Origin: Histomonas meleagridis
Taxonomy: Eukaryota > Parabasalia > Tritrichomonadida > Dientamoebidae
NCBI GenBank assembly: GCA_020186115.1
Contig: WSYJ01000013.1
Span: 124,001-188,000 of the forward strand
Reading direction: 5' to 3'
DNA: 64,000 nucleotides
This document shows, piece after piece, positions 5,866-30,727 of the stretch. The stretch's first letter is position 1; every line of letters begins with the position of its first letter. The notes under the pieces were generated by a model. That model worked only from the letters and a program-made list of their open reading frames with translations. It was not told the origin of the DNA and made no database searches. Position numbers and translations under genes: made by a program.

Positions 5866-8133
5866 TTATTCAACTGTGGTTACATTGTGATTCATTTGAT
5901 AATTTATTAGTTTTTGTTTGAGTTGATACACCAAATTAATAAAATAAACATTTGCTTTAATATTATTATCACTAATACTTTCAAGTAGTTTCAATATATC
6001 TTCGTGACCACTTTTGAGTGCATAAGTGAGTGCTGTCATAAGAAATTTTAATAAGTTCCGAATATTATATCAAAGCATAAAATTATTAAAACAAATTTTA
6101 TCTTTTGTAAATAAATATCTTTGGCATTTATTTCAATATCATTATGTTCGAGAAGTAATTGAACCATTTCTGTGTTTCCATTTTGAGATGCGAACATAAT
6201 TGCAGTTTTAAATAATTCAAATAATTTCCAAATATTTTTCTGAAATATAAATTTATTAAAACAAATTTTAAATATAACAAAAAAAATATTTTTAATATTC
6301 ACATCAATTTTATCTTGTTCAAGAAGTAATTTAAATACTTCAACATTACCATTTTCAGCAACTTTCATAAGTGCTGTATTAAATATATTTAATAATTTCC
6401 AAATGCAACAAAAAAACATCAAACTATTAAAACAAATTTTAAATATAATAAAGAAATACCTTTTGCATTCACATCAATACCTCTTTGTTCAAGAAGTAAT
6501 TTAATTGTTTCTGTTTGACAATACCAACAGGCCCAAATAAGTGCAGTCCAAAATGATTTTCACCAATTCCAAACATTATATCAAAAAATGAAATTAAATA
6601 AACAAAATATTTTATCTTTAGTGTTTATATTAATACCTCTTTGATTAAGAAGTAATTTAACTATATCTACATAACCATTTTCAGCAGAATACATCAAAGC
6701 AGTTTTAAACAAACAGAATAAATTCCAAACATTACAAATAAATATCAGATTATCCAAGTAAACATTAAATATTTCAAACACACGTCAACGACATTAATAT
6801 CAAGACCTTTTTGCCCAAAAAGTAATTTAACAATTTCATTTTTGCCATATCTCGAAGCCTTTATTAGAGCTGTTTGCAAACATATAAACAAATTCCAAAT
6901 ATTATCAAAAAATATCAAAACATTAAAATAAACTTTAAATAAAACAAAAGAAATATTTTTCGTATTAATATCAATCTTTTGTTGTTTCAATACAGATTTT
7001 ATTATCTCAATGTTACCATTCATCAAGAACATATTCGCAATAACTTTATTCTGTTCGATATATGGAATTAAAATTAAACCATTTTCAGTTTCATTTAATT
7101 CATTCATAAAAGAGGCTTCAAATTTCATTCCATCATCGATTAGAAAAGAAAAGATTTCATAATTAAAATAACGTAAACACATATTCCCTAAATGTATTAA
7201 ATCATCAATTTTTTCTATATTGTTTTCATAAAAATATTTAAAGATGTCATTCTGATGGAAATGGATAGCGATTTCATATGCGTTAAAGAAAGATGAATTA
7301 TTTTGTTCACATAAATGAATTATCTCTAAGTTTCCTCCAGCTATAGCAAACTTACCTGTATTATTGGCACTTGCGCCATTAATTAACAAATATTTAAAAC
7401 ATTTAATTGATCCAAAAAATGCTGAATAATCAATCATAGTAACGTCTTCTTCATTAACAAATGAACATCGTTCATATATAGATGGCTTGATTCTTTTGTT
7501 AAAGTCAAAATTATTTTTTGACGTAATTTCTTGGAGTTTTTCAATGTCATCATTTCGAAGTATTTTTGCAATTTCATTCGGATTGACTCCTTCTGATGTT
7601 AACTTCTTATGAAGTGCCCAGTCGTTTTTAGATAGTTCTTCATTATTGTATTGGAAAAAGTCATAAAATTTAGAGTATATAATTTCTTTTTTGATAAAAT
7701 ATTGGCCAAAATATAATGAATGAGGTAATTGTTTTGGCTTAATGTAATCTTGTTCCAATAGTTTGGCTAAGATATAATATGATTCTTGACAAGTCTTCTT
7801 TTAGCTTCAAGAATATGAGATATAAATATATTTATTATATTATAATCTGAAATTGTGATTTCTTCATTCTTTTCAACCAACTGCATAAATTTACAATTGT
7901 AAATAAATATTAAAATCCTTTTTCTGTGATAAAAATGCGGAATATATTAATTGAGATATATTTAAATTAAAAGAATATTGTAAATTGACATCATAAAAAT
8001 TCATTAATGATTCAACTGAGGTCATTATATTATCTTCATTTAAGTTAAAGATTATACGTTCAATAATTAATGAATTTGATAAAATTTCTTGTATACCTTT
8101 TGGTATTTTGTTGGGTGATAAAGTATGAGACAT
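5866..8133 (-). pseudogene. Ankyrin-repeat gene A (DUF3447 family), frameshifted, with repeat-spacing inserts
   Basis: The gene reads from ATG 8133 (MSHTLSPNKIPKGI) to TAA 5866-5868 after a tail ending MNHNVTTVE. It has the N-terminal helical region seen in paralogues, then a DUF3447-type core (NDWALHKKL, then GVNPNEIAKILRNDDIEKLQ, then IYERCSF, then IDYSAFFGSIKCFKYLL), then about seven ankyrin repeats (TALMYSAENGYVDIVKLLL and similar). Two frame changes break the N-terminal region, near 7888 and near 7785; coding resumes as QESYYILAKLLEQDYIKP. Between consecutive repeats lie inserts of 80, 81, 80, 66, 80 and 81 nt, most containing stops; the two 81-nt inserts stay open. Such proteins are usually cytosolic interaction scaffolds. 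It is either a pseudogene, an assembly with errors, or a gene needing unusual processing. It shares a 245-bp divergent spacer with gene B. Confidence 0.7.
6037..6954 (-). repeat. 80-nt inter-repeat inserts of ankyrin gene A
   Basis: Measured from the Asp-position codon to the Thr codon, the inserts lie at 6037-6116, 6207-6287, 6378-6457, 6548-6613, 6704-6783 and 6874-6954. They are strongly AT-rich. In the coding sense they share a middle close to TTTATTTTAATAATTTGA and an end close to TTTGGAAATTATTT followed by AATTATTT(G/C)AA. Confidence 0.75.
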
Positions 8134-8378
8134 TTTAAATGACAAAGTGGACCAAGTTTTTGTTTTATTTATTCAAAAATTGGATCTTCATTTCACATTT
8201 CTTCTGGACACGATCTCAGTTAAAAAGTCAAATTTCAATACACATATGAACGTTCATTTTATGGAGCTTAACGTTGCAAAAGTGAATGTTATCGGTTAAA
8301 GTATTTTGAATGTGTGTTCATGATCACCCTATACAAATTTTCATAATAAACCGCTAGAATTCTGACATATCGCTCTTA
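8134..8378. promoter_or_regulatory. Divergent intergenic region between ankyrin genes A and B
   Basis: A 245-bp spacer separates the start codons of two ankyrin genes pointing away from each other, so any promoters for both must lie here or within the genes. It contains ATCGGTTAAAG (about 8290), similar to trichomonad M3-type elements. I see no other structure. Confidence 0.35.
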
Positions 8379-10861
8379 ATGGGAAACGAAGAGAGTACTC
8401 CATCACAACATGATGATAGCTCAAAACCAAGGTTACCAACATCCACAAATCAAGAAACCATTCAAATCCTAGTCTATCTTCAAAATTTACTTTTTAATTT
8501 AAAGGATGAAAATTTTGAAGAAACTCTATGCACGATTTTATCTACTTTTGATCCCACCTTCAGTTACACATGGTCGAATGTTATTTTGCAATTGATTTTC
8601 AAGTGTTTTCTTTCAAATCATGGGAATAATTTCAAATTGTATTTTAGCTTAATAACAAATCTTGATGAAAAAATTAGTGAAGATCTGAAAATGATGGACC
8701 GGTTTGTGCAATTTCTTTTGATCAATTCTGGAAAAAAAGAAGCGAAATATTTTCTAGAAATGTTAATTGAAAGTGATTATATTAAGCCACAAAGAGTTTT
8801 ACACTTAAAAACTTTATATTTTTCACATTATAAAACGGAAGCAGATGTTAAGAAATGTACCAAAGATGTTCCTTTTTATGATCAATTCTTTAAATCATTT
8901 GATACACTAAAAGAAAGTCAATTGGGAACTTCAAAAGAAACTTGTTCATGATGGTGTTAATCCATCAGAAATAGCTATAGCTCTTCGAAATGATGATATC
9001 GAAAAATTCCAACAAATATCATCGCAAACTAATTTTAATTTTAATCAAAAGATTATTCCATCTCTTTATGAAAGATGTAGTATTGTTAATGAGAAAGATG
9101 TTTCACTTATTAATTATTCCGCCTTTTTTGGATCTGTTCAATTTTACCTTATGCTTCACAATCTAAAAATGTTGAACTTGTAAGATATGTTCTTACATAT
9201 GAAGAAATTGACCTAAATGCTAAAGATATTTCTTAGTTTTGTTTGATATTTATTTTAATAATTTGAAATTTCAAAGCAATTTTTGGAAATTATTTAAATT
9301 ATTTTGTGCTTCATTATTAAATGCTATAAACCATTATAATAAAGATATCCTAAGATTACTTCTTGATCAGTATAGTATTGATGTTAATATTATAATAAAG
9401 ATATAATTTTATTTTATTTAATGTTTATTTCATTGAATTCCAATCAAATATTCGGAATTTATTTAAATCTTCTTGTACCCCACTTTGGACTGCTTCTTCC
9501 AAAGGATTTCTTCAGTCTGTAAAATCACTTCTTGAACAAAAAGGTATTAATATCAATGTCAAAAGTATTTATTTGCTTTGTATAAAATTTATTCACAAAA
9601 TTTGATGTTTCCAAAGAATATTTCTTCAAAATTATATAAATTATTTCAAACACCACTCATTGCTGCTGCCATAGGTGGTTATCATGAAGTAGTTAAATTA
9701 CTTCTTGAACAAAAAGGAATTGATGTTAATGCTAAATATATTATTTTCTTTTATATAGTGTTAATCATAAATTTATATTGTTAAAGCATAAAATTTGAGA
9801 ATTATTAAAATTATTTGAAACAGCACTTCATAAAGCAGTCCAAAAAGGTTATCAAACAACCACTAAATTGCTTCTGGAACATAAAGGAATTGATGTTAAT
9901 ATAAAAATTTCTATACTTTGTTTGGTATTTCTTATAAAATTATCTAGTTTAAATATAATAAAAAATGTTTATTCAAATTATCTTGAACACCATTAATGAT
10001 TGCATCTCACTTTGGTCATGTAAATATTGTTTAAATGCTTCTTGATTATAAAGAAATTAATTATAAAGCAAAAGATATTTAATTAATGAATTTCCTGTTT
10101 CTTTTAATGTTTTTTTATTTCAAAATAATATTTGGTATTTATTCAAATTATTAATAACTGCATTTTTAGATGCAGTTGCAGAAAATAAAATCGAAGTAGT
10201 TAAATTATTTCTTCAAAGAAAAGATATATCAATTGATATTAATGATAAAAGAGCTTTAATTTTTTGTATGAAATTTATTAAAATTATTTTATATTTCAAA
10301 GTAATGTTTAAAATTTAATTAAATAATTTAGAACAGCACTTATCTATGCAGTCAAAACAGATAACATTGATATGGTGAATTTAATACTTCAACAAAAAGG
10401 AGTTGATATGTATGCTAAAGATGTTTATTATTATTATATTCAAATGACTTTAGTTTAATTTTAATGAAAATGCACTTTTTAATGCAGTTCGTTGTGATAA
10501 TGTAAAAATAACGAATTTACTTCTTCAACAAGGAAATTATAATTTAAATTGTGAAAATATTAACATGTTTTGTATGATGTTTTATTCAATAACTTGTTGT
10601 TTTGTATTAAGATTTGGAATTTGTTTTAAATATTACTTACAGTTCTTATGATAAGTCATAATATTGACATTGTTCAAATGCTGCTTGATAAGGGAGCTGA
10701 TAAAAATATCAAAAATTTTTGTTTTTTTCATTCAAAGATTATTTTAATTTCTTCAAATTTCAAATAAATTTTTGGAGTTTTTTGGGGTTTTTCAAAACAG
10801 CACTTGATTTAGCTTCTGATAAAGGTTATAAAGATATAGTTGAATTAATTAGAAATTATTA
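8379..10861 (+). pseudogene. Ankyrin-repeat gene B (DUF3447 family), frameshifted and internally deleted
   Basis: It starts at ATG 8379 (MGNEESTPSQHDD) and ends at the TAA at 10859-10861 after TALDLASDKGYKDIVELIRN. The N-terminal 180 residues are open. At about 8922 a one-base change shifts the frame; the paralogous sequence continues as WELQKKLVHDGVNPSEIAIA. At about 9145 the core jumps from FFGSVQF straight to YASQSKNVELVRYVL, so most of the DUF3447 core, roughly 150 codons by comparison with genes C and D, is missing. About eleven ankyrin repeats follow, each close to 90 nt and mostly open, separated by AT-rich inserts (80, 84, 83, 80, 77, 80, 80, 36, 80, 80 nt). A further small indel lies near 9383. 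The deletion makes this the best pseudogene candidate among the ankyrin loci. Confidence 0.75.
9228..10796 (+). repeat. 80-nt inter-repeat inserts of ankyrin gene B
   Basis: Ten inserts: 9228-9307, 9393-9476, 9567-9649, 9740-9819, 9910-9986, 10077-10156, 10253-10332, 10433-10468, 10559-10638 and 10717-10796. Six are exactly 80 nt, giving a unit period near 170 nt (90 coding plus 80). Their ends lack a conserved GT or AG. Confidence 0.75.
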
Positions 10862-11096
10862 AATTAGAATTGGGAAAGTTTTAAATTCCAATTAATAATC
10901 ACATTACTAAAAACACTTTCACATTTTTTCTTTTTTTCATTATGAGTTCAATTTAATCCGGATCTTTAATTTAAACTAATTAAAAAAAGTGTTATAACAC
11001 ATTCTTCAATAATTCGAATTATACACATTATTAATTAGTATAATTGTATATAATAATGAAAATATGATCATGCTTTTTAATCATTAACTTCTTACA

Positions 11097-12008
11097 TCAT
11101 AATGAATTTACATCAACATTTGAATTTCTGCAGCATAAGGCATATCCCACGATCATACTTATCAATGCAATAACACCCGTTACTACTGATCCGATAATCC
11201 AAAAATACTTATTTTTTAATAAATTCTTTTCCTTTGAGTGTTCAGCATTTGTTGTTTTTGTTCTTGGCCTTGTAGGTCTTCGTGAATGATGTGGATCACT
11301 TGGATCAACTCCTGGACCATCACCAGGATCATCTGGTTTATCTGGTTTATCTGGTTTATCTGGATAATCTTCTGGATTGTCCTCTGTGTAATCTTCAGGG
11401 TAATCTTCTGAATAATCTTCAGGATAATCTTGTGGATCATCAGAATATGGCGTTTCTTCACCAGGAAAAACTGGCCAACTTATTGAAAATCCTGGAGGAA
11501 GAGATGGAAAGTGATCTGTTTTTGTTGGCTTTTTTGTTTTAGTAATTGTTTTTGTTGGCTTTTTCGTATTAGTTGGCCGTGGCTTTGTTATAGGAGGCTT
11601 TGTTTTGGTTATAGGAGCAGGTTTTGTTTTTGTTTTAGGAGGCTTTGGTGTTGGTGGTTGTTTTGTTTTTGTCTTTGTTTTTGTTTTTGGTTTAGTAGGC
11701 TTTTTTGATGGACGACCTCCTTTACCCAATTTCTTTAAAATTTTAAATTTTTCTTCGTCTTTTATATCATCTTCGTTATTGTCCATTTGAGAAGAATCTT
11801 CTATCTTTTTACATACACATGAAAAATTTCCTGGCTTCTCTTCTTTACAATAAAGAGAATATGTACTTTTATCCACCTGAGTGCTTGATTTTCTCCTGAA
11901 TAGTTGTAACATAAATAAATTTTCCCCTTCGCTAATATTATTTGTATGAAATTCAAAGTAAGCAAAATTATTAAACCCTTGAATACATCGGAAAAATATA
12001 TAAAACAT
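11097..12008 (-). CDS. Lys/Thr/Pro-rich single-pass membrane protein
   Basis: A 303-residue protein from the ATG at 12008; an in-frame stop lies shortly upstream, so the start is real. Residues about 95-170 are low complexity with repeated TKTK, PTKP and KPTKT units. Residues about 185-225 carry repeated DYPED/DYSED acidic units followed by DKPDKPDKP. A clear membrane segment (YFWIIGSVVTGVIALISMIV) begins at about residue 268, followed by a short tail starting CCRNSN. This architecture resembles the stalk, membrane anchor and tail of trichomonad surface proteins such as BspA-type adhesins. The N-terminal 90 residues show no signal peptide or leucine-rich repeats, so it may be the remaining 3' part of a larger surface protein. 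Confidence 0.65.
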   Translation of the reverse strand: MFYIFFRCIQGFNNFAYFEFHTNNISEGENLFMLQLFRRKSSTQVDKSTYSLYCKEEKPGNFSCVCKKIEDSSQMDNNEDDIKDEEKFKILKKLGKGGRPSKKPTKPKTKTKTKTKQPPTPKPPKTKTKPAPITKTKPPITKPRPTNTKKPTKTITKTKKPTKTDHFPSLPPGFSISWPVFPGEETPYSDDPQDYPEDYSEDYPEDYTEDNPEDYPDKPDKPDKPDDPGDGPGVDPSDPHHSRRPTRPRTKTTNAEHSKEKNLLKNKYFWIIGSVVTGVIALISMIVGYALCCRNSNVDVNSL

Positions 12009-12513
12009 TTTGATATTTAAAAAATGAAGTGACTGTTCTATATGGTTTTTAAGTTATAAATACATTTTCGGAGGAACAATGCCTTTGTTGTTAAAAACTA
12101 TAACTATGAACCTGAAGAACGAAAAAGAAAATATAAGAACTTTTATAAAAATACAAACGAAAATAATTTAAAGGAACATTTAAACAATAATTTGTGAAGT
12201 TAATAATTTCATTTAAGAATTTTCCATGTACAAATTTAATGTCGATATTGTACTATAGTTAAATCCCATGATTATAAAAAATTATGTCATGGTGACAACT
12301 GAAGGAATACAGAAGGATGAAAGTAATTAATTTTCTAGATTACATTGGAATTACATATAAGTAAATTAACACATTTGCAGTTGTATTTTGTAAGATTAAT
12401 TGTTGTGATTTTTCTTATTATGCGTTAATAGGCTTAACTTTGAAATCAAATAATATTGAGCATGCAAAACGATCAAATGCGACAGAAAAAAATTTGAATA
12501 AATGTGAAATCTT
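12009..12513. other. 505-bp gap, no gene seen
   Basis: AT-rich spacer between the 3' end of ankyrin gene C and the 5' end of the membrane protein gene, both on the minus strand. No open frame, RNA gene or repeat is recognisable. Confidence 0.6.
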
Positions 12514-14969
12514 TTACATAGAAAAAATTGTATTAAATTCCTCGGAAGCAAATTCAAGCAATTTAACAATTTCCCTATGACCATTATTAGATGCACAAAT
12601 AAGTGCTGTTTGAGATAATTCAAAAAAATTCCAAATATTATTTTGAAATAAAAAATTATTAAAATAAATTCTAAATAAAACAAATAAATATTTTTAGCAT
12701 TAATATCAATTCCTTCTTTTTCAAGAAGTAATTTAACAATTTCTGTATGACCTTTTTCCGATGATATTATAAGTGCTGTTTTAAATAATTTAAATAATTT
12801 TCAAATATTATTTTGAAATATCAAATTATTAAAATAAATTTTATCTTTAGCATTAATATCAATTCCTTCTTGTTCAAGAAGTAATATAACAATTTCTGTG
12901 TGCCCCTCTATAGATGCATATATAAGTGCTGTTTTAAGTAATTTAAATAATTTCCAAATTTTATTTTGAAATATCAAATTATTAAAATAAAATTCAAATA
13001 AAACGTATCAATATTCCGAGCATTAAGATCAATTCCTTTTTGATCAAGAAGTAATTTAACAATTTCTATTTTATTATAATAAGATGCTTGAATAAGTGCT
13101 GTCCAAAAAAAATTTAAATAATTCCCAAATTTTATTTTGAAATATCAAATGATTAAAATAAATTTCTTAAGCAAATAAATATCTTTTGCATTAATGTCAA
13201 TTCCTTCTTGGACAAGAAATAATTTAACTATTTCTGTATAGCCATATTTACATGCATATGTAAGTGCAGTCCATACTTGTCAAAATATTTTCCAAAAATT
13301 ATTATGAAACATAAAATTATTAAAATAAATTTTATATAAAACAAATAAATATTTTGAGCATTAAGATCAATTCCTTTTTGCTCAAGAAGTAATTTAACCA
13401 TGTTTATGTGGCCTTTAGAAGATGCCCAAATAAGTGCTGTATTAAATACTCTAAATTATTAAAATAAATTCTAAAGATAAAAAATGAGTATCTTTGGAAT
13501 TAATATCAATTCCGTCTTGTTCTAAAAGATATTTAGCCATTTTTATATTACCATATGCAGATGCAATCAAAAGAGGTGTATATAATATATTAAATAATTT
13601 CCAAACATGATTTAAAAATTTCAAATTTTTAGAATTAACTCTTAATAAAATTAATAAATATTTTTGGAATTAATATCACATCCTTTTTCAACAAGTAATT
13701 TAATAATTTCTATGTGACCATTATAAGATGCAGTCATAAGTGCTGTATCAAATAATTTAAATAATTTTCAAATTTTATTTTGAAATACAAAGTTAATATA
13801 ACAAATATAAAATAAAAAGATTAAATATCTTCTGCATTAATATCAATTCCTTTTTGTTCTAATATAAATTTAACAAGTTCAAAATTTCCTGAACACGAAG
13901 AACAATTTAAAATTTTCTCTGATTTTTTATCAATTTGGAAAAAATACTTAATAAGATATAAATTACCTAAACTTGCAGAAAAATTGATAATTTTTTCACT
14001 AATTTTCATTCCATCTTTAATTAAATATGTTAAAATTTCAAAGTTATAATAAAAAACACATTTGGTTCCTAATTCTTCTAAATTATTGATTTTTTCAATT
14101 TTATTTTCATAAATATATTTAAATACATCATTTCGGTGAAATTTAATTGCTGTATCATATGCTCCGTTGAATGATGATTGATTTTGTTCACATAAATGAA
14201 TTATTTCGATATTTCCACCCACAATAGCATATTTAAAGGTGTTCTTTATGTTAGAACCATTCAAAAGTAAATATTTAAAACATTTAATTGAACCAAAAAA
14301 TGCTGCATAATCAATTAATGGAACTTCATCACTATTGATAAAATCACATTTTTCATATAGTGATGGTTTAATTGCTTGATTAAAATCAAATTTTGTTTGC
14401 GATGATATTTCTTGAAGTTTCTCAACTTCATCGTTTCGAATTATTTTCGCAATAAAATTGGGATTTACTCCTTCTTTGATTAATTGCTTATGAAGTTCAT
14501 AATCATTCCTTGAAAGTTTTTTATAATTTAATATAAAAGATTTTTCAAAAGGTTTAACATATGCTCTTTTCTTGCTTTCTTCTTCTGGCTTATAATGTGC
14601 AAAATATTTTGAAGCAATGGTTTTAGTAACTGTTTTATCAACTAAATTTTTTTCGATCATTTTTTCTATTAAATAATATGATTCTTGTGAATGAGTTTTA
14701 AATAATAATTTAGTAAAAATTTTAATGATTTTATGATTACTTTTATTTATTTCTTCTTCTTTTATTTGAACTGATTTCAAATAATCTAAGTATATATCAA
14801 CTCCATCATTTTTAGATACAAATTTAAAGTAAACCAAATGACCTATAATTAAATTAAATGAATATGGAAAATTTGAATCGTATAATTTTATTGTTTCCTT
14901 CACTGATAACTCAATGTTTTCTTTTGTTAAATTAAATATTATTTTTTCGAGTGAGACAAGTGATTCCAT
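12514..14969 (-). CDS. Ankyrin-repeat gene C (DUF3447 family), intact core, repeats separated by 80-nt inserts
   Basis: ATG 14969 (MESLVSLEKIIFNL) begins an uninterrupted frame of 382 codons covering the N-terminal helical region, the hinge NYKKLSRNDYELHKQLIKEG, the DUF3447 core (IDYAAFFGSIKCFKYLLLNG, then IEIIHLCEQNQSSFNGAYDT) and the first ankyrin repeat ending IDINAEDI at a stop (13821). Downstream, eight more repeats (for example TALICASNNGHREIVKLL) are in coding condition but separated by inserts of 80, 80, 49, 79, 78, 80, 63 and 80 nt. The last exon-like segment closes with FNTIFSM and a TAA at 12514-12516. If the inserts are removed, a protein of roughly 600 residues results. If not, only the 382-residue product is made. 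This is the least damaged of the four long ankyrin loci and the best one to test. Confidence 0.6.
12610..13826 (-). repeat. 80-nt inter-repeat inserts of ankyrin gene C
   Basis: Inserts at 12610-12689, 12780-12842, 12933-13012, 13103-13180, 13272-13350, 13441-13489, 13580-13659 and 13747-13826. Four are exactly 80 nt. The consensus is the same as in genes A and B. Confidence 0.75.
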
Positions 14970-29928: not shown

Positions 29929-30727
29929 TCAAATTTTTGTGTGATGAGAGTTTATCAGCACAAATTTAAAACAACGATGACCTTAATTTTTGAATGGACT
30001 TGACCGTCTTTGAATAAATATAAAGTATAGAAATAAATAAAGTGGCAATACGTTGTTTTTTTAGAGATTTAAATTTGCTGTTGCGTAAATAGAAATGTAA
30101 GTGATACATGAAAAGGAATTCATACAATTTTTCAAAACGAACATAGCTCGGTTTTATATGCGCATTTATTAAGTGAATCTGTAAAATATAAATATGAAAT
30201 ATATGAATCTGATATCTCACTAATATTTGATGCTAGGATAGAACGTTTGAAAAAAAATTAAGTTTTCAAGAACTTATTCATATTATATAATATTTTTTTA
30301 GTCATGCAAGCAAAATTTTTCATGATCAAAATTTTTAACAACAAATGTGAAAAAAAATCGGTAGTATCGGCTTCACTTTTTGAACGTGATTCTATTAAAA
30401 CCGATCAAAAAATGCTGCTAATTTTTTACAACCAGTTTATTAGATAACTAATTAGCGGATAAAAAGTGACAAGGGTTTTATAGAACGGGGTGTCCCAAAA
30501 CGTTACAAATTTTTCAATTTTTTAGAATAACTTTTTGCAATTGTTCCTTTTCAAGCAGACATTTTTTTTTTAGAATTTGATATAAGAACTTTAATAGCAG
30601 CAGTTGAGCATAATGTATTTCTTATCAAATTCCTAAAATTTTCAAAAAATTGAAATCACCAAAAATATCAAATTTTAATTTGTTTAAAGCAAGACAATAT
30701 GTGGCTTGTTTCATTTTATTCAAAGCT
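29929..30727. other. 799-bp gap, no gene seen
   Basis: Divergent spacer between the kinase gene (minus) and ankyrin gene D (plus). AT-rich. The frame before 30728 is open without an ATG and is not conserved-looking. Confidence 0.5.

Follow-up and report, generated by a model that had tools for sequence, protein, structure and literature searches.

Short interruptions of coding genes are known from protists. Stentor has spliceosomal introns of 15–16 nucleotides (nt; PMC9505925), Trichomonas vaginalis has introns of 23 nt with T-rich interiors (PMC12316389), and for a virulent strain of Histomonas meleagridis 573 introns have been reported, at most one per gene (PMC8529796, in the main text of which the word "ankyrin" is absent). 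Here, we analyse a stretch of 64,000 nt of the H. meleagridis genome (the window; contig WSYJ01000013.1, positions 124,001 to 188,000 of the forward strand), in which three genes, A, B and C, contain ankyrin repeats interrupted by elements, almost all of them 17 nt in length, that are each followed by a single codon. These elements point to an undescribed way in which short pieces may be left out of a gene product. A literature search, judged by its listings and by selected passages, found no earlier account of such elements. H. meleagridis is a parasite of poultry, and its ankyrin-repeat gene family is large.

Results

An initial annotation of the window had described ankyrin repeats in genes A, B and C that are separated by a recurrent insert of 80 nt. 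Repeats, inserts and coordinates are all real, and the copies have a middle and an end in common, as it had described; the length of 80 nt is real as well, but the unit behind it is four times a 17-nt element plus one codon. We compared the window with 50 loci (L009–L058) from the same genome, which was searched over 43,276,120 bases in 121 contigs. Twenty loci were picked by similarity to gene C and 30 as the best matches to DUF3447, for which the genome search gave 150 matches (150 of 1,695 candidates scored), and the loci are therefore no random sample. One of them, L047, lies within L011 and is left out as a duplicate where stated. Neighbouring repeats at a distance of 60–200 nt occur 305 times in the loci and the window, and 298 times without L047. 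The spacing in these 298 cases is 170 nt in 211, 153 nt in 48, 173 nt in eight, 156 and 171 nt in six each, 150 and 167 nt in four each, 176 nt in three, 113 nt in two, and 102, 139, 161, 165, 168 and 191 nt in one each.

The repeat is laid out as D-[17]-x-[17]-x-[17]-G-[17]-x-T-A-L, in which every 17-nt element is followed by one codon, and the ankyrin repeat consists of one 90-nt piece and four isolated codons at hairpin positions x2, x3, G4 and x5. Dropping the elements yields N-A-K-D-x-x-G-x-T-A-L, with the D-x-x-G-x-T hairpin of ankyrin in a repeat of 34 residues. Subtracting four times 17 nt from 170 nt leaves 102 nt, which is the repeat spacing (observed once) in L049, a 500-residue DUF3447-ankyrin frame in the same genome and an intact, insert-free member of the kind that the initial annotation had considered informative. 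The pooled elements have the weak consensus RTTTATTTWWATTATTT, and the consensus is also slot-specific (54 nonredundant units). Their first nucleotide is A or G at a pooled frequency of 0.91, followed by T at 0.78, and the last two are TT in 725 of 816 elements. By sequence, the boundary could slide in 609 of the 816; the variable codons fix it in the pooled data, not per copy.

The strongest support for this layout comes from the isolated codons. Among 204 unique 170-nt units, substitutions between close pairs cluster in insert triplets 108–110, 128–130 and 168–170, which fall on a 20-nt grid, and the remaining slot of the grid (148–150) is Gly in 171 of the 204. Stop codons are absent from all 816 isolated codons (columns 108, 128, 148 and 168), compared with 3.1, 10.9, 0.9 and 18.9 expected per column by column-wise shuffling, about 34 in total; the force of this test comes from columns 128 and 168, because the expectations for the other two are so small. 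Close-pair changes amount to 27.6 per single-codon column versus 6.5 per element column, and element columns 162 and 159 change fairly often too (31 and 21). A period-20 register on the predicted grid collects 331 changes, versus 180, 254, 214 and 136 for the overlapping registers 106, 107, 109 and 110 and 51–115 for the 15 registers that share no column with it. A single intron of 80 nt is ruled out, as variable triplets and a conserved Gly sit inside the insert. Taken as a whole, the insert is slower to change than exon positions 1 and 3 when close pairs are compared, and in the pairs furthest apart its rate of change equals that of third positions (0.320 versus 0.315).

Repeat codons 5, 8, 9 and 11 are variable, as are the isolated x codons, and the framework codons are nearly frozen. 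The hypervariability of codons 5, 8, 9 and 11 between close copies suggests a diversifying binding surface. The variable positions resemble those that are randomised in designed ankyrins. With a 204-residue consensus as query, 119 distinct solved sequences matched at E up to 1e-30, and natural and designed ankyrins are among the 60 listed.

The length rule holds for most units. With elements of 16–18 nt allowed and L047 left out, a regular parse into four elements and four codons was obtained for 202 of the 211 170-nt units, and 47 of the 48 153-nt units are short of a single element, the codon of which is retained. The 113-, 139-, 150- and 173-nt forms correspond to one, two, three and four elements with loss or gain of codons, an element of 18 or 16 nt is present in all six 171-nt units, and several further units can be parsed only with difficulty. 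When lengths of 13–21 nt are given equal cost, 17 nt is the length of 814 of the 1,000 elements parsed in unique inserts. We also decoded the arrays with a procedure that permits elements between any two codons; its element model was trained on the same units, and it therefore tests the place of the elements, not their existence. It put 1,839 of 1,896 elements at the four hairpin junctions in 58 stretches (1,867 of 1,924 in 59 stretches with the duplicate L047), and with the duplicate included the junctions are occupied in 391/511, 470/517, 472/509 and 490/513 cases. A second decoder, without element model, with the hairpin columns made uninformative and with a flat cost per skip, has a total that peaks at 17 nt (2,429), followed by 28 nt (2,157). 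The anatomy is secure, and the register, the length rule and the protein-like character of the isolated codons are shown.

Ordinary introns of this genome carry other signals. The T. vaginalis-type motif GTAYGT...ACTAACACACAG has no match, and the H. meleagridis form was found afterwards: the exact pattern GTATGT...CTAACACATAG, searched with gaps up to 66 nt, has 18 matches in the genome, one of 25 nt and 17 of 57–82 nt, and none in the reversed control. Four of these 18 predicted introns (L059, L060, L063 and L065) were inspected and all were judged to join coding frames; among eight candidate intron sites, coding continuity was judged to be present in these four and in L062, which does not begin with GTATGT, and in none of L061, L064 and L066. 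On its own, the motif YTAACACAYAG shows hardly any enrichment (119 versus 100 in the control). On contigs C9, C53, C55 and C84, CTAACACATAG also occurs as a tandem series with a period of about 825 bp, which is probably a tandem repeat unrelated to introns, and several of the longer predicted introns hold internal inverted repeats by eye. In the arrays, GT...AG ends occur in 0 of 816 elements, in agreement with what had been noticed in the window, and 263 unique inserts contain GTATGT and CTAAC in no case and TAACACA in one. RNA folding gave a mean minimum free energy z-score of 0.02 over 40 inserts; no consensus fold was found over 50 inserts, a comparison without power as the shuffled control also gave 0.0.

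Matches to the insert are numerous in the genome. A 35-nt motif composed of the 3' half of the insert, one free codon and the start of Thr-Ala-Leu has 4,470 matches with at most three mismatches (2,244 + 2,226), and its reversed control has none. With about 3.6 elements per decoded repeat, the total of 17-nt elements would by extrapolation be of the order of 16,000. Outside the decoded arrays, a scan of 430,796 nt (both strands), for which the sensitivity to a lone element is unmeasured, gave ten matches, nine in L068 and one in L067, and the reversed control gave eight, also in L067 and L068; both loci are DUF3447-family matches that were left undecoded. In the window itself, one weak element site lies apart from the arrays, at 30651 (−). 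These two scans gave no convincing lone element in another gene. A joined-repeat query against the own genome returned uninterrupted frames of 984, 1,578 and 1,101 residues at 45–49% identity; among the matches listed no long insert-free copy of these arrays was read, and two matches at 60–61% identity are of the length expected for three repeats whose inserts are 63 nt. Two H. meleagridis DUF3447 proteins (P0016 and P0020) are publicly named "cask-interacting protein (caskin) 1,2", which probably reflects ankyrin similarity only. In addition, a proteomic table of H. meleagridis includes a protein with an ankyrin-repeat name, a KANK1-like unigene (PMC10063853).

Relatives in other species may share the arrangement. 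The gene C search returned proteins from ENA, of which P0001–P0015 are 35–61% identical to gene C; P0001 has at most 60% identity to this genome among the matches scored and therefore seems to come from another species. Of 19 ENA proteins inspected, P0001, P0002, P0005, P0006, P0010, P0011, P0013 and P0019 end one residue past the Asp position. P0003, P0004 and P0015 end 12 residues past it, which makes the 13th codon, lying astride the end of element 2, their stop. This codon is also where the first stop of the H. meleagridis units most often falls (57 of 204). P0014 has 21 residues ahead of T-A-L, which equals the 63-nt form, and the remaining proteins end elsewhere or stop short of the insert. 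In our reading, made from the proteins alone, these relatives would keep the element register. The gene C search also matched P0022 and P0026 of Tritrichomonas foetus, which have Pfam domains for DUF3447 and ankyrin; these predicted proteins, known here as proteins alone, run on through the ankyrin repeats.

Within the window, gene C (DUF3447/ankyrin; 12514–14969, minus strand) carries eight element-bearing inserts, and its ATG (14967–14969) and TAA (12514–12516) were verified. Its N-terminal part (13827–14969, −), with DUF3447 and the first ankyrin motifs, comprises 381 codons without stop and runs to the Asp that precedes the first element; Pfam assigns DUF3447 (PF11929) at 1.8e-13 and 50.7 bits (cut-off 26.9), and also Ank_2. 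The array was decoded over 12556–13910 with 28 elements, 26 of them at the four hairpin junctions, and the stop codon follows directly after the last repeat. The insert lengths first reported for gene C were confirmed except one given as 79 nt, which is 80 nt, and read 80, 63, 80, 78, 80, 49, 80 and 80 nt in window order. In gene order, all on the minus strand, insert 1 (13750–13826) has four elements around single codons, at 13810–13826, 13790–13806, 13770–13786 and 13750–13766. Insert 2 (13583–13659) has four with the Gly codon retained, at 13643–13659, 13623–13639, 13603–13619 and 13583–13599, and insert 3 (13453–13489; the 49-nt form) has two, at 13473–13489 and 13453–13469, the remainder being whole codons. 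Four elements make up insert 4 (13274–13350), at 13334–13350, 13314–13330, 13294–13310 and 13274–13290. The 78-nt insert 5 (13106–13180) is irregular: a single codon is lost once and the last element is 18 nt long (13106–13123). This element ends in a T run, which could be a homopolymer sequencing error or real decay. Insert 6 (12936–13012) again has four elements, at 12996–13012, 12976–12992, 12956–12972 and 12936–12952. The 63-nt insert 7 (12783–12839) has three, at 12823–12839, 12803–12819 and 12783–12799, the first element being cleanly missing with its codon retained, and insert 8 (12613–12689) has four, at 12673–12689, 12653–12669, 12633–12649 and 12613–12629.

The gene A array (5983–6959, −) was decoded with 22 elements, 20 of them at hairpin junctions, and two of its six inserts are irregular; its N-terminal part (6960–8133, −; ATG at 8131–8133) contains ordinary frameshifts. 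The gene B array (9201–10847, +; stop at 10860–10862) was decoded with 36 elements, 30 at hairpin junctions, and has numerous codon gaps and insertions, and the frame of its N-terminal part (8379–9200, +) is broken after 190 codons. Because of the ordinary frameshifts in their N-terminal parts, genes A and B appear to be decaying copies, gene B being degenerate; gene C appears nearly intact. Between genes B and C lies an open reading frame of 303 residues (window 11097–12008, −) with short tandem repeats within.

Discussion

The best explanation of these arrays, which we favour with reasonable rather than strong confidence, is that the four 17-nt elements of each repeat are left out of the product, most likely by an excision from the transcript that does not use GT...AG. 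Once four non-coding elements, nearly always of 17 nt, are left out, the codons would join as D-x-x-G-x-T, and the cutting of the transcript would depend on an activity with recognition of the phased 20-nt array (17 + 3) instead of on GT...AG splicing. We infer from the sequence that the elements are probably absent from the protein, with RNA excision as the most likely route and bypass as the second. A more far-reaching version, for which our judgement is evenly balanced, is that an activity separate from canonical splicing, in RNA processing or in decoding, takes out 17-nt elements in their thousands and joins exons of one codon each into ankyrin hairpins. This version includes that the activity would rely on a measured length and 20-nt phasing instead of splice-site sequence, and that the target-binding codons of a diversifying family would be held as one-codon cassettes.

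Several observations weigh against removal of the elements. A single element holds only 8.6 bits over background; with the median element score as threshold, 135 sites are present on the two strands of the 64-kb window, those of the arrays among them. Recognition therefore cannot rest on element sequence alone, and we infer that the 20-nt phasing matters. With lengths of 13–21 nt at equal cost, 186 of 1,000 elements parse at lengths other than 17 nt, and in the second decoder a skip of 28 nt beat 17 nt in four of eight arrays (L040, L031, L053 and L050); we conjecture that a flat skip cost, which favours fewer and longer skips, would account for this. Gene C has one irregular insert (insert 5). 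Purifying selection on the repeat segments, raised in the initial annotation, is not seen in the pooled ratio of non-synonymous to synonymous differences (pN/pS), which is 1.04 over 156 close pairs; a value near one gives no net purifying signal, and purifying selection is visible only position by position. Finally, the joined-repeat query found no Histomonas-like protein, as judged by identity, in the best 120 of 6,348 database matches, a weak negative as there is no sign that the database includes Histomonas RNA-derived proteins.

Could the elements stay in the messenger RNA? In a translational bypass, which we regard as possible and rather unlikely, the ribosome would, four times in each repeat, read a codon and then hop 17 nt. 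The short, near-fixed length, the AU-rich composition without splice signals and the whole-codon pieces on either side would all suit such hops, and block inserts are bypassed at 81 sites in the mitochondria of Magnusiomyces capitatus, where some take-off codons do not match the landing codon (PMC5009743). However, the codon preceding an element equals the last triplet of that element in only 7 of 816 cases, and re-pairing of the peptidyl-tRNA is therefore unsupported. Moreover, in 184 of 204 units the element in slot 1 opens with an ordinary Ile codon and not with a stop, and about 28 hops would be needed for gene C alone.

A doubtful alternative to the proposed excision is that the elements are spliceosomal introns with degenerate splice sites and roughly the size of Stentor introns. 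The start of the elements, mostly a purine and then T, is compatible with such introns, and comparably small ones exist in Stentor (PMC9505925) and, T-rich, in T. vaginalis (PMC12316389). They are difficult to reconcile with the complete lack of GT...AG ends, the prevailing TT ends and the near-absence of GTATGT, CTAAC and TAACACA from the inserts, when predicted introns of this genome carry GTATGT...CTAACACATAG, and exons of 3 nt between introns of 17 nt would be extreme.

More doubtful still is that nothing is removed, in which case the protein would end in the first insert and the arrays would be dead or silent DNA. A stop within the insert in the upstream frame is present in 129 of 204 units and the remaining units leave the frame, and the pN/pS near one, the decay of genes A and B and the database negative are in line with this possibility. 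It is at odds with the isolated codons, which are free of stops and conserve their Gly, with nearly frozen framework codons beside variable surface codons, with an element length that is maintained across wide divergence, and with the stop right behind the last repeat of gene C. The initial annotation had offered three options: a removable intron-like class, a skipping element at the level of DNA or translation, or a tandem unit spread after gene death. The first two both remain candidates, and the evidence favours an omission from the product. The third fits genes A and B and misfits the family as a whole, because of the 0 stops in 816 codons, the retained isolated Gly, the nearly frozen framework and, in gene C, the open N-terminal part and the stop directly behind the last repeat. 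Least probable by far is that the insert is translated with one frameshift to give repeats of 50–57 residues. In its favour, the downstream frame can be extended upstream across many inserts without meeting a stop, the 153-nt units preserve the frame and 22 of 41 unique ones are open, and the 23 nt that directly precede the final codon have, in distant pairs, a coding-like third-position excess in the downstream frame. In-frame stops in 19 of the 41 unique 153-nt units, together with variable triplets 108–110 and 128–130 that occupy different frames and for which one frame cannot account, led us to reject a translated insert with a −1 shift.

If the elements are indeed left out, a gene family would be written in single-codon exons with 17-nt spacers in a genome of 573 reported introns (PMC8529796), and standard gene finders would miss thousands of such repeats. 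It would also bear on how the binding surface of a protein family may vary one codon at a time.

How do these arrays compare with known systems? Like the introns of Stentor (PMC9505925) and the type B introns of T. vaginalis, which are 23–25 nt long and likewise T-rich (PMC12316389), the H. meleagridis elements are very short, near-uniform and located in coding genes of a protist. Those introns are mostly GU...AG, with CTAA-type branch sites in T. vaginalis (PMC9505925, PMC12316389), whereas the elements have RT...TT ends and no branch motif and stand one codon apart, up to four per repeat. The non-canonical introns and introners of Amoebophrya are similar in their many copies and the lack of a GT–AG signature, and their excision, like the one proposed here, is unexplained (PMC7789003). 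However, they are varied and supported by RNA-seq, and a subset has inverted repeats of 8–20 nt and direct repeats of 3–5 nt at the boundaries (PMC7789003); the elements described here have a nearly fixed length of 17 nt and no fold that was seen, and occur in one gene family only in the sequence examined. The block inserts of M. capitatus are also many short, frame-breaking pieces in one genome (PMC5009743). They are mitochondrial, disrupt 12 of 15 genes and are bypassed in the product (PMC5009743), whereas the omission proposed for H. meleagridis would concern a large protist genome, one repeat family and elements of nearly always 17 nt between single codons. If confirmed, the arrays would represent a mode of gene interruption that matches none of the known classes compared here.

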